A stretch of 64,000 nt of DNA from Brucella cytisi (lineage in GTDB: Bacteria > Pseudomonadota > Alphaproteobacteria > Rhizobiales > Rhizobiaceae): positions 1,116,001 through 1,180,000 of the forward strand of contig JAAVLQ010000001.1 in the NCBI GenBank assembly GCA_012103075.1. Direction: 5' to 3'. The translations under genes and the position numbers were made by a program. This document shows, piece by piece, positions 2,658 to 5,307 of the stretch (its first letter is position 1; every line of letters starts with the position of its first letter). The notes below the pieces were generated by a model that was not told where the DNA came from, did not search any database, and saw nothing but the letters and a program-made list of their open reading frames with translations.

Positions 2658-2896
2658 GGTTGGCGGTTGCGCAGGCGAACGCCGTAGCCGTTGCCATTCT
2701 GGTCAATGAAGATGACACCAGCGGCCTCAAGAGCATTGCGAATCGCGTCCACTGTGCGAGGTTGGGCAGCAAGTTCGCCGCGCTGCGTTTCAAGACGCTT
2801 GATCGACGGTAACGACACTCCGCATGCGTCAGCAAGTTCCTTTTGTTCCCACCGCAATAACGCTCTCGCCGCTCGCACTTGTTCACTAGTTAACAT
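2654..2896 (-). CDS. XRE-family transcriptional repressor, 80 aa
   Basis: A compact Cro/C1-type helix-turn-helix protein: ARALLRWEQKELADACGVSL, then SIKRLETQRGEL and VDAIRNALEAAGVIF. The full length (80 aa) is a single HTH_3 domain with a short tail ending GVRLRNRQP, a form common in rhizobial phage-like elements. It has no dimerisation or cleavage domain, so it probably works as a plain dimeric repressor. The gene faces away from the rightward operon at 3012. The 115 bases between hold three operator-like palindromes, the nearest only five bases before its start codon. Autoregulation and control of the divergent operon are therefore likely (inference). Confidence 0.85.
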   Translation of the reverse strand: MLTSEQVRAARALLRWEQKELADACGVSLPSIKRLETQRGELAAQPRTVDAIRNALEAAGVIFIDQNGNGYGVRLRNRQP

Positions 2897-2900
2897 TTTT

Positions 2901-2984
2901 AATACCTCAGGTATTGACGATGCCTCAGGAATCGAATAATACCTAGGGTATCAAATTGGCGCAACGCAAACCGCCGATCATAGT
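2901..2984. promoter_or_regulatory. divergent promoters with three operator-like palindromes
   Basis: Three related 15-bp near-palindromes: AATACCTCAGGTATT (2901-2915), GATGCCTCAGGAATC (2919-2933) and AATACCTAGGGTATC (2938-2952), with centres 18-19 bp apart. A leftward promoter fits -10 TATTAT (complement of 2936-2941) with a weak -35 TTGCGC (complement of 2959-2964), 17-bp spacer. A rightward promoter fits -35 TTGGCG (2956-2961) and -10 CATAGT (2979-2984), 17-bp spacer. Site 3 covers the leftward -10 and abuts the rightward -35. A half-site, TACCTAGG, also overlaps the ribosome-binding site of the gene at 3012. Confidence 0.65.
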
Positions 2985-3011
2985 TACCAGATCGTTACCT
3001 AGGAGACCACA

Positions 3012-3274
3012 ATGCCACGCACACCAGCGCAGGCAGCCGCTAGAGGCTTGCCTAAAGACCCTTTAGAGGCCGCCAGAGAAGTTTTTTCTTCGCGCTGGAC
3101 GACGCTCTCGGACGGATGGAGAGCGCCATTAGGGTAATGGACATGCTGACCGATAGTACGCCGCAAAATCATGGCGTGGCGGCTTTATTCGACAAGCACC
3201 GTGAAATCGATGCCATGGTTAGGCAAGCTTGGCCAATCGTCGTGGGCCGTCCGGGTTGTGTGGTGACAGCATGA
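3012..3274 (+). pseudogene. hypothetical protein, 87 aa after repair (frameshifted)
   Basis: ATG at 3012 follows a good ribosome-binding site (AGGAGACCACA). The frame reads MPRTPAQAAARGLPKD and stops early. Adding one G at 3114 continues it as DGMESAIRVMDMLTDSTPQ to a TGA at 3272-3274. That stop overlaps the next start as ATGA, which supports the repair. The product is helical and soluble, of unknown function. It is the first gene of the rightward operon controlled from the 2901-2984 region. Confidence 0.5.
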
Positions 3275-3582
3275 GCAAAATCCGCGCACTTTACGTTTTG
3301 GCATGTGCTTGCAGCGACGAGGCGAAAAGCCAGTCTGATAAGGTAAATGACGAAATCTGGACGGCTGTTTGGCACCTTAAAGAAGCCATCCTCAATCTCC
3401 GCGCGCAGTCACGGGCAGACTTGGACGTCAAAATCGCCATTTGGACTGAGCTGGTCGAGGACCCAATGCGCATCCTCGATTCTCATCAGGAGCATTGGCG
3501 CGCGATGATGGCTGACTTTTCACTATTCATGCACGCCGCCGAACACCCTGAGCGATATCCAGAATTAAGGGTGGCGTCATGA
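3271..3582 (+). CDS. hypothetical protein, 103 aa
   Basis: Unrecognised helical protein starting MSKIRALYVLACACSDEAKS. The start is chosen because its ATG overlaps the preceding stop (ATGA). It is rich in Trp, Ala and acidic residues (EIWTAVWHLKEAILNLRAQS) and has no signal peptide. Second gene of the compact rightward operon, with a four-base overlap to the next gene as well. Confidence 0.55.
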   Translation: MSKIRALYVLACACSDEAKSQSDKVNDEIWTAVWHLKEAILNLRAQSRADLDVKIAIWTELVEDPMRILDSHQEHWRAMMADFSLFMHAAEHPERYPELRVAS

Positions 3583-3749
3583 TCGAAGCAGAGCTTAACG
3601 CACGAGTTGAAGATGCAAGGTCCGAGCTCTTCATCCTGACGCTCCTTGTCCGAGATGGCATTGAAAATGGCTTCAATAACAATGCTCTTGAGCTGCAAAG
3701 CTCGCGCGCTGAAGACGCGCTCGAAGCAGTTAAGGAGATATCGGAATGA
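3579..3749 (+). CDS. small hypothetical protein, 56 aa
   Basis: ATG at 3579 overlaps the preceding stop (ATGA), and its own TGA overlaps the next ATG. It encodes an acidic helical peptide, MIEAELNARVEDARSELF to VKEISE. The perfect stop-start coupling on both sides is the main evidence that it is translated. Function unknown. Confidence 0.5.
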   Translation: MIEAELNARVEDARSELFILTLLVRDGIENGFNNNALELQSSRAEDALEAVKEISE

Positions 3750-3847
3750 TCGACCTAGCCTCTTTCGTATTTGGCGTCGTCAGCGGTGTCATAGGCTCTT
3801 GGGCTGTCATAGCCGTTATCGTCTACACCGACCCGCACAGGCGGTGA
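3746..3847 (+). CDS. tiny single-pass membrane protein, 33 aa
   Basis: ATG overlaps the preceding stop (ATGA). The product is almost entirely one hydrophobic segment (LASFVFGVVSGVIGSWAVIA) with a short basic tail (PHRR). Last gene of the rightward operon, seven bases before the tRNA-like sequence. Tiny membrane proteins of this type are common at the ends of phage operons. The role is unknown. Confidence 0.45.
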   Translation: MIDLASFVFGVVSGVIGSWAVIAVIVYTDPHRR

Positions 3848-3854
3848 CAAGTTT

Positions 3855-3930
3855 GCCCGCGTATCGGTCCCGCCTTCTAAGCGGGTAGCCGTAATGGATG
3901 ATGCAGGTTCGATTCCTGCGGCGGGCTCCA
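3855..3930 (+). tRNA. degenerate tRNA-Arg(UCU)-like sequence without a D-arm
   Basis: A 76-base tRNA-like sequence with encoded CCA (3928-3930). The acceptor strands 3855-3861 and 3920-3926 pair at 6 of 7 positions. There is a perfect T-arm (GCAGG, TTCGATT, CCTGC; 3903-3919). A 5-bp stem (CCCGC/GCGGG) closes the loop CTTCTAA (3874-3880), which has the anticodon TCT. Only seven bases separate the acceptor from the anticodon stem, so there is no D-arm, and about 17 bases lie between the anticodon and T stems. A CGG/CCG extension of the anticodon stem is possible. It resembles phage-type tRNA-Arg(UCU) but may not be charged or used by ribosomes. Confidence 0.5.
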
Positions 3931-3934
3931 ATAT

Positions 3935-4066
3935 CCCGGTCACCAGCCGGGAAGGTAATGTGAACTTTTGCACATTACTGCCACAACACGAGGAGACCCA
4001 TCCGGCCTCACCAGCCGGGTCAGCAGTATGCATTTTATGCATACTGCTTCCAAAACACGAGGAGAC
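3935..4066 (+). repeat. two tandem hairpin modules, about 69-bp period
   Basis: Each module has three parts. First, a GC hairpin with a 7-base loop: CCCGG/CCGGG at 3935-3951, and CCGGC/GCCGG at 4002-4018. Second, an AT-rich hairpin: 3954-3982, and a perfect 12-bp stem with a TTT loop at 4022-4048. Third, the identical 13-mer AACACGAGGAGAC (3985-3997 and 4054-4066). The stems differ in sequence between modules while pairing is kept, and the GC-hairpin loops share TCACCA. The 13-mer contains a Shine-Dalgarno-like GAGGAG, but no convincing ORF follows either copy. No T-runs follow the hairpins, so they are not standard terminators. Function unknown. Confidence 0.6.
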
Positions 4067-4096
4067 AGACCCCTGCCAAAATTGGGCGGGGGTAGC

Positions 4097-4252
4097 CCCG
4101 ACCGGCCATGGCGCTGGCGTAAACCATCCGGCGGTCATCGGTCGGGCGAGAATCTAAATGGATCATGCGCCATCCATGTTCCACCGAATCCCCGCCAATG
4201 CTGGGAAAACTGCGGAAAACCCCGTAAACGTGGGAAAACGCATGGCGCATGA
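4097..4252. other. att-like repeat region next to tRNA-Thr
   Basis: No gene. It holds an 8-bp inverted repeat (CCCGACCG at 4097-4104, complement at 4139-4146) and an 11-bp inverted repeat (TCATGCGCCAT at 4163-4173, complement at 4242-4252). Inside the latter are three direct repeats of the form SGGAAAAC (4203-4210, 4213-4220, 4232-4239). It lies 58 bases from the 3' end of tRNA-Thr. Such an arrangement would fit integrase-arm or excisionase sites of an element integrated at the tRNA. That reading is inference, because no duplicated att core can be shown within the window. Confidence 0.4.
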
Positions 4253-4310
4253 CTTTCTAAGCCTGTGCGTCAGCGCATTGCGCTAGTTCTTTGAATTTGT
4301 TGGATGATTT

Positions 4311-4386
<76 letters not shown>

Positions 4387-4536
4387 TTGCGCCCGATTAG
4401 CACAAATGCAGCGCGTGTAAAACGAAAATTCATCGCTAGCAGGTCATGGCAACCGGGTTTTTCATGTGATAGCCAATAGCGGGTTGGGGAAAAAGTGGCA
4501 GCCTTGTCAGAGTTGGCCAGATTCGGGACTGTAAAT

Positions 4537-5307
4537 ATGGAAGATAAATCGCTCGCGCTGCATTTTCTGTCGTCGGGAACCGAAGAATCACTTGTCGCAC
4601 AAAAGAACTCGTTGCCCGCTACGGTCACGTGGCTGCTGAAGATGCCGATATCATCGTTGCGCTTGGCGGCGATGGAACCATGCTTCAGGCGCTTCGCGAT
4701 TTCATGAACAGCGGCACGCCGATCTATGGCATGAATCGCGGCTCTGTTGGCTTCCTGATGAACGAATTCAGCGTGGATGACCTGCCGGAGCGCATTCTGG
4801 CCGCGCAGATGGAAACCATTCGCCCGCTTGTCATGGTCGCCGAAACAGAATCCGACCAATCATTCGAGGCTTTGGCGATCAACGAAGTTTCCCTTTTCCG
4901 TCAGTCCTATCAGGCTGCGAAGATTCGGATAACGATTGACGGCAAGGTGCGTCTGGACGAACTCGTCTGCGATGGTGTGATGGTCGCGACGCCTGCAGGT
5001 TCCACCGCCTACAATCTTTCAGCACAAGGTCCCATTCTGCCGCTTGAAGCGCCACTTCTGGCGCTGACTCCGGTGAGTCCCTTCCGTCCGCGCCGTTGGG
5101 GTGGGGCGCTATTGCCGAAGCACGTAACCGTTCGCATGGATTTGTTGGAAACCGAAAAACGCCCGGTCAATGCGGTCGCGGACAATAATGAGGTCAAATC
5201 GGTCAGGGCTGTTACCGTGCGGGAAGCACCGAACAGCCGGTGGCCATCCTCTTTGATCGAAATCATTCCGGGACGAGCGCATCCTGACAGAACAGTTCAG
5301 GCATTAG
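4537..5307 (+). CDS. ppnK: NAD kinase (frameshifted in this assembly)
   Basis: Phosphorylates NAD to NADP in the cytoplasm. The sequence shows the family signature [15 protein letters not shown], then [23 protein letters not shown] and [17 protein letters not shown]. Start ATG 4537 gives [20 protein letters not shown]. The frame is lost near 4605 (GG read as G). It is lost again near 5237 and 5270, where added bases restore an ending of about ILTEQFRH and the TAG at 5305-5307. The repaired length of about 257 residues is normal for the alphaproteobacterial enzyme. NADP supply is essential, so the frameshifts are best read as sequencing errors. Confidence 0.88.

Follow-up and report, generated by a model that had tools for sequence, protein, structure and literature searches.

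Tandem hairpin modules in a Brucella cytisi prophage as likely ORF-less members of a phage start-leader family

The window analysed here is a stretch of 64,000 nucleotides from Brucella cytisi (assembly GCA_012103075.1, contig JAAVLQ010000001.1, positions 1,116,001 to 1,180,000), and the elements in question are two tandem hairpin modules at 3932-4067, located at the right end of an integrated prophage. Prophages of the genus carry a family of conserved leaders directly in front of many of their genes, and the best explanation of the two modules, which we consider likely, is that they are tandem members of this family that lack an open reading frame (ORF). That they are such members and also serve as decoys or binding platforms is a reading that we favour with less assurance, and the decoy or platform step taken by itself is tentative. 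The evidence below establishes the motif family and its location ahead of ORFs, the occurrence of a distinct subclass with an AT-rich hairpin 3' of tRNA-Arg(UCU), and the conservation of pairing in the AT stem.

Two tandem modules

In each module a GC hairpin whose loop contains ACCA and then an AT hairpin are followed by the 13-mer AACACGAGGAGAC, and the two modules are spaced 69 nt apart (Table 1). The GC hairpin pairs 3935-3939 with 3947-3951 around the loop TCACCAG in module 1, and 4002-4006 with 4014-4018 around CTCACCA in module 2; the AT hairpins are formed by 3955-3962/3971-3978 and 4022-4033/4037-4048 respectively. Coordinates and folding thus agree with the original prediction, made from the window sequence, of two such units ending in an identical 13-mer, and none of 200 shuffles folds as well as either unit. 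In module 1 both the GC stem-loop and the AT loop are shorter than in related modules; the host assembly, with a completeness of 85.8% and a contamination of 6.4%, may carry indels. The exact 13-mer is present only at these two sites in the window and in none of 100 shuffled versions, while matches with up to three mismatches are not enriched in the window (9 matches, with 13.9 expected).

The 13-mer had been described as resembling a ribosome-binding site with no ORF behind it, and there is indeed no ATG, GTG or TTG 2-13 nt past its GAGGA in either unit. A hidden ORF running across the modules is not apparent either, as no frame is kept among relatives; single loci have open frames over the modules, those in the window being 87 amino acids (sense) and 127 amino acids (antisense) long. 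A search of the window at Rfam gathering thresholds returns three ordinary tRNAs only, the modules have no Rfam match even with lax filters, and blastn of 3930-4160 against phages and plasmids gives no match.

Start leaders of prophage genes

The motif is a start-associated leader specific to phages of the genus, with a hairpin in part of its copies. The 10-mer AACACGAGGA has 14 sites in the 5.87-Mb genome that contains the window (the reversed word has four), six of them within the 40.8-kb prophage, and four of these six precede ORFs of 73-146 codons. Across the genome, nine of the 14 sites have an ATG 6-9 nt on, two are the modules, and three are neither. The leader pattern with an ATG gives 317 matches, a sum over table rows in which several overlapping rows stand for one site, and 25 of 35 genus genomes have at least one; the reversed control gives three. 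The genus matches listed cluster in stretches of ~50-80 kb. Outside the genus, in a sample of 297 genomes from the family, there are 0-4 matches per genome and 0-2 for the controls.

Eight prophage regions (the prophage of the window and seven chosen after clustered leader or module matches) contain 95 CACGAGGA sites, of which 75 lie before an ATG-initiated ORF of at least 30 codons, four before a shorter ORF, and 16 before none. Of the 75 ORF-linked leaders, 62 have ACCA in the 16 nt immediately upstream of the motif, and 23 have a hairpin with an ACCA loop ahead of it (mean 1.4 and maximum 4 in 100 shuffles). When 23 such hairpins are listed under slightly different rules, their stems differ and most loops are alike (such as CCACCAA, CTACCAA and CTCACCA). 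The wobble-pair count in these leader hairpins, 5 G.T versus 2 A.C cells, somewhat favours the sense strand. The overall layout is, in part of the copies, an ACCA-loop hairpin, followed by an A/C-rich stretch, (A)ACACGAGGAG, and normally an ATG.

The position and core of the leader mark it as a translation start signal. Its extra conserved parts, CACG and the ACCA loop, seem to have no clear ribosomal pairing partner, which suggests a dedicated reader. A look-alike leader is present in a viral contig that otherwise seems unrelated (L065, 460-530), where a long hairpin with an ACCA loop is followed by AACACGAGGAG and ATG; it may reflect either chance or kinship.

Conservation of the modules among relatives

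DNA search finds the region, whole or in part (the tRNA alone in some genomes), in 10 of 35 genus genomes, including that of the window. A covariance-model search of relatives, suggested as a check of the original prediction, recovers ten modules from eight loci. The model used (R1) was built from six of these ten modules, and the calibration of this and the other covariance model was short. R1 matches at E 0.01 or better occur in 18 of 35 genus genomes, and strong matches (45 bits or more) occupy eight places in six genus genomes, both window copies counted; the ten modules comprise these eight, one from the viral contig L062, and the second copy of G325, which scores lower (26 bits). The weak R1 matches in the genus are the same leader minus the AT hairpin, directly 5' of ORFs. 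Outside the genus, R1 matches in the family sample do not exceed 31 bits, and those displayed are unlike the module. Pattern scans were less discriminating. A scan of genome contigs was too loose, with at least 120 stretches, and among those listed only L109 and L127 were judged real; a first scan of viral contigs gave nine stretches (the real module L062, the look-alike L065 and seven chance-like), and further scans gave two (L062 and an ORF-linked leader, L247) and nine (L062 and eight chance-like).

In the ten modules 95.3% of helix cells are paired, versus 26-41% when the helices are slid. Double-sided changes affect 8 of 16 pairs, all within the AT helix (8 of its 11 pairs), and the 28 double-change cells compare with 7.1 in shuffles, none of 500 of which reaches 28. 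The ten-module alignment was fitted to the covariance model and so leans towards structure; when eight modules are aligned with MAFFT alone, 7 of 16 pairs have double changes. The GC helix is almost constant across the ten modules and is therefore uninformative as to structural selection in this set. Pairing of the AT stem is thus conserved while its sequence changes, supporting the selection on structure proposed earlier; the opposite pattern, a retained primary sequence with lost pairing, had been named as grounds for abandoning that view and is not what the relatives have.

Of 149 stem cells, 139 are Watson-Crick pairs, which would also suit palindromes acting at the DNA level, either as sites for a DNA-binding protein or as recombination or integration sites near attP. 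Most loci lie near a host tRNA, and the authors of the start-associated sequence work favour DNA-binding sites for the extended start-associated sequences of cluster K mycobacteriophages (PMC3203893). One phage has two different stem sequences, though, two loci (L051, L055) are ~1 kb from the host tRNA, and the order relative to the Shine-Dalgarno motif is fixed, and we consider this explanation improbable.

Copies without an ORF

The AT-hairpin form is present in ten copies at eight loci, and every locus (8/8) is 3' of a phage tRNA-Arg(UCU). The module match begins 2 nt after the CCA of the tRNA in six of the eight loci, and ~210 nt (L051) and ~340 nt (L052) away in the others. Three loci (L047, L056 and L062) have a normal cloverleaf tRNA, and the other five have one without a D-arm. 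Eight of the ten copies have no ATG, GTG or TTG 2-13 nt past GAGGA, and the 10-mer is intact in nine of ten. As startless copies are present in different phages, one recent gene deletion is not a sufficient explanation.

A broader version of that idea is that the modules are relics, leaders of small genes lost through recombination between repeated motifs and now without function. The same motif starts genes in the prophage of the window and in relatives, a motif-led gene lies further down in L050, L051, L053, L054 and L055, and one copy has decayed. However, the AT stems carry compensatory changes, the 10-mer is nearly always kept, start codons are missing from most copies in different phages, R1 matches of 45 bits or more never precede an ORF of more than 11 codons, and the weak ORF-linked R1 matches lack the AT hairpin. 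Relics are thus rather unlikely. The suspicion that the 13-mer is simply the ribosome-binding site of deleted ORFs is correct in that the motif occurs as such a leader elsewhere in the same prophage, but it does not account for the startless majority; similarly, genes do follow the motif in relatives, as had been raised, but mostly not where it has the AT-hairpin form.

There is another conserved kind of copy without an ORF, in which the motif lies 99-113 nt 5' of an ORF-linked copy, in seven of the eight prophage regions. Sites of this upstream kind are G016:C2, G299:C2, G303:C14, G297:C22, G305:C2, G016:C4 and G189:C1, and its copies are in loci L290-L308, L053 and L055. In L050 and L051 the upstream motif is predicted to fold within a GCCAAGG/CCTTGGC hairpin.

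Proposed role and alternatives

We propose that the sense strand of the modules is transcribed in a rightward early operon, and that either the 30S subunit or a putative factor recognising the ACCA loop would read the leader. The window copies, being without a start codon, would bind that reader without making protein and, within the structured 3' portion of the early transcript, could serve as decoys or binding platforms. Selection on the structure of copies without an ORF suggests a binding partner of the signal other than a ribosome that proceeds to translation.

Several observations weigh against this proposal. Two of the ten modules do have an ATG 6 nt past GAGGA, with ORFs of 11 and 34 codons, and the motif is decayed in one copy (L056). 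The regions in which ORF-linked leaders were counted were largely chosen for their matches, and 52 of the 75 leaders have no ACCA-loop hairpin by the rules used, so that the signal does not require the hairpin. A simple scan finds no promoter on either strand of 2850-4550. The strand is not settled by wobble pairs in the module helices (3 G.T versus 4 A.C cells), and the minus strand folds slightly better in eight of nine regions.

The last point bears on an antisense role, in which a minus-strand RNA with CUCCUCGUGUU between its hairpins would pair with the start leaders and silence them in lysogens. Complementarity to the leaders follows from the sequence, and the minus strand is co-directional with the nearby host tRNA gene in 8/8 loci and with int in the circular form of the phage. 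Any prophage at a tRNA 3' end gives such an orientation, however, the G/U-richer strand folds better through composition alone, the G.T counts are not in its favour, and the promoter scan was negative for the minus strand too; we regard antisense silencing as the least probable of the readings considered here. A cis-acting transcript element, such as an antiterminator resembling put or, like STAB-SD, a stabiliser bound by ribosomes, would likewise fit two adjoining hairpins and an untranslated Shine-Dalgarno motif in an apparent early operon, but the modules are ~1 kb away from the divergent gap and have no counterpart in Rfam, and the ORF-linked leaders of the family point to translation, making it an improbable choice.

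The decoy or platform proposal has an extended form, in which the neighbouring tRNA and the modules would be co-transcribed as one phage cassette for translation takeover. Copies of the start signal without an ORF would then titrate the reading factor or ribosomes, and the phage could in this manner tune its own gene starts. We think this extended form rather unlikely.

A tRNA-Arg(UCU) without a D-arm

The tRNA-like sequence that adjoins the modules in the window is probably a real and conserved RNA. The D-arm is absent in 12/12 aligned sequences and a 4-bp covarying extension of the anticodon helix is present instead; double changes occur in 16 of 21 pairs, and the linker around GUAA-GGA is conserved. 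Ten of the 12 rows are from genomes of the family and two from phage records (Bitten and Mildred21); L052 (the same as L009), L014/L055 and L051 (with a longer linker), and Francob were left out. The window sequence is missed by ARAGORN and by Rfam at default filters. With lax filters it scores 29.7 bits with the Rfam tRNA model (RF00005, cut-off 29), having the acceptor, anticodon and T arms and the CCA of that model and lacking its D-arm.

A model of this tRNA, R2, scores the window copy at 95 bits (it is among the sequences from which R2 was built) and has one match each, of 60-97 bits, in 9 of 35 genus genomes; that in G303 (L345) also lacks the extension helix. In a class sample of 289 genomes searched with stricter filters, the R2 matches listed besides the window's own do not exceed 46 bits, and the best 21 that were checked (L310-L330) are ordinary tRNAs. 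Among phage records, R2 scores 73 bits in Pseudomonas phage Bitten and 72 in Streptomyces phage Mildred21, both of which contributed to the model, 56 in Streptomyces phage Francob and 57 in Escherichia phage Bas93; the tRNA is unannotated in Bitten, Bas93 and Francob, and is annotated as "tRNA-OTHER" in Mildred21. Arthrobacter phage Talia1610, also a hit, has no R2 match. Loci with the D-arm-less tRNA are that of the window, L048, L050-L055, L011-L013, L015 and L016, together with L256, L257, L259 and L348. A literature search turned up no paper linking a D-arm-less tRNA with a phage or prophage, and the word phage is absent from a review on non-canonical tRNAs (PMC7609411).

Prophage organization

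The prophage is ~40.8 kb long and is integrated at a tRNA-Thr gene, with both modules at its right end. It is flanked by a direct repeat, 47 columns long with 97.9% identity, that derives from the 3' part of that tRNA (Table 1), and integrase, helicase, terminase and tape-measure genes lie between the repeats. At the right end, minus-strand genes are followed by a divergent gap near 2950, small plus-strand ORFs, the tRNA-like sequence, modules 1 and 2, the third and then the long hairpin, and attR. The last minus-strand gene before the gap encodes a small helix-turn-helix protein (2657-2896; HTH_3 24.2 bits, cut-off 23), and four small ORFs nearby (662-1507, 2075-2455, 3229-3582 and 3579-3749) have no PHROG match. 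Palindromes near 2900-2960, presumed to be operators, are unlike the AT stems of the modules when compared by eye.

Table 1. Features at the right end of the prophage, in window coordinates
Feature	Position	Strand	Remarks
tRNA-Arg(UCU) without D-arm	3855..3930	+	7-bp acceptor, U8-A9, anticodon loop CTTCTAA, T-arm, encoded CCA
Module 1: GC hairpin, AT hairpin, 13-mer	3932..3998	+	R1 74.4 bits (among the model's own sequences); fold z -3.0
13-mer, copy 1	3985..3997	+	Start-leader motif, Shine-Dalgarno core AGGAG, no start codon after
Module 2: GC hairpin, AT hairpin, 13-mer	3999..4067	+	R1 83.6 bits (among the model's own sequences); fold z -5.9
13-mer, copy 2	4054..4066	+	No start codon after
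Third hairpin, directly 3' of second 13-mer	4069..4093	+	Counterparts with other stems in L047, L048, L049 (by eye)
Long GC-rich hairpin, ends approximate	4095..4148	+	Similar in L047, L049; shorter in L062 (by eye)
attR	4311..4357	.	Repeat of tRNA-Thr 3' part; partner 40.8 kb leftward, ~-36456 in window numbering

Words resembling ATGCGCCAT are present on both sides of the attachment (att) core, at 4163-4182 and 4233-4252 in the window and at 3625-3648 in L058. A terminator had been considered for the inverted repeat 4163-4182/4233-4252 and was dropped, as related words adjoin the left att; this makes integrase arm-type sites more likely, and these words are probably such sites. The integrase is seemingly split into two minus-strand ORFs (L058, 3681-4830), the integrase family match being in the larger ORF only, and this split may be either genuine or an error of the assembly. 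Genes for tRNA-Met and tRNA-Thr(TGT) lie within the prophage (L058, 10312-10523).

Comparison with known systems

The put RNA of phage HK022, which brings about antitermination by contacting RNA polymerase, has two adjacent hairpins in an early phage operon, within about 65-70 nt. The modules resemble it in shape, the feature on which they were compared; they have no Rfam match, contain an added Shine-Dalgarno motif, and are away from the presumed promoter region. The CsrB/RsmY sponge RNAs carry repeated hairpins and GGA-containing single strands. The modules would be like them if they titrate a translation factor, but are not filed as members; here there are only 1-2 copies per phage and the GGA is outside the hairpin loop.

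The nearest known kind is the start-associated sequence (SAS) and extended start-associated sequence (ESAS) of actinophages, and the leader family would work in the manner of SAS without being classed as a member. SAS and ESAS are described in passages on cluster K mycobacteriophages (PMC3203893), with SAS/ESAS-like motifs in Microbacterium cluster EF phages (PMC7302621) and further passages in PMC12699233. Apart from the announcement of one Citrobacter phage, the start-associated-sequence papers among the matches listed deal with actinophages or are reviews. According to these passages, SAS is a 13-nt conserved motif, containing AGGAG in cluster K, that lies just 5' of many phage gene starts and is scarce in the host. 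Some copies have a second element 5' of them, which in cluster K is an inverted repeat, and rare copies are without a gene. The motif family here likewise places a ~13-nt motif with a Shine-Dalgarno core before many starts, the window copies not doing so, and is concentrated in phage and rare in hosts (6 of 14 own-genome sites in the prophage, and 0-4 per genome outside the genus). The sequences are unrelated, however, (A)ACACGAGGAG here as against the consensus GGGATAGGAGCCC given in those passages. For cluster K the authors find little to suggest that the ESAS repeats pair in mRNA; the AT stem here, by contrast, covaries and so retains its pairing through changes of sequence. The ACCA loop and the tandem copies without an ORF tied to tRNA-Arg(UCU) are further differences. 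A private hairpin start signal before many genes would offer a concrete case for what start-associated sequences do.
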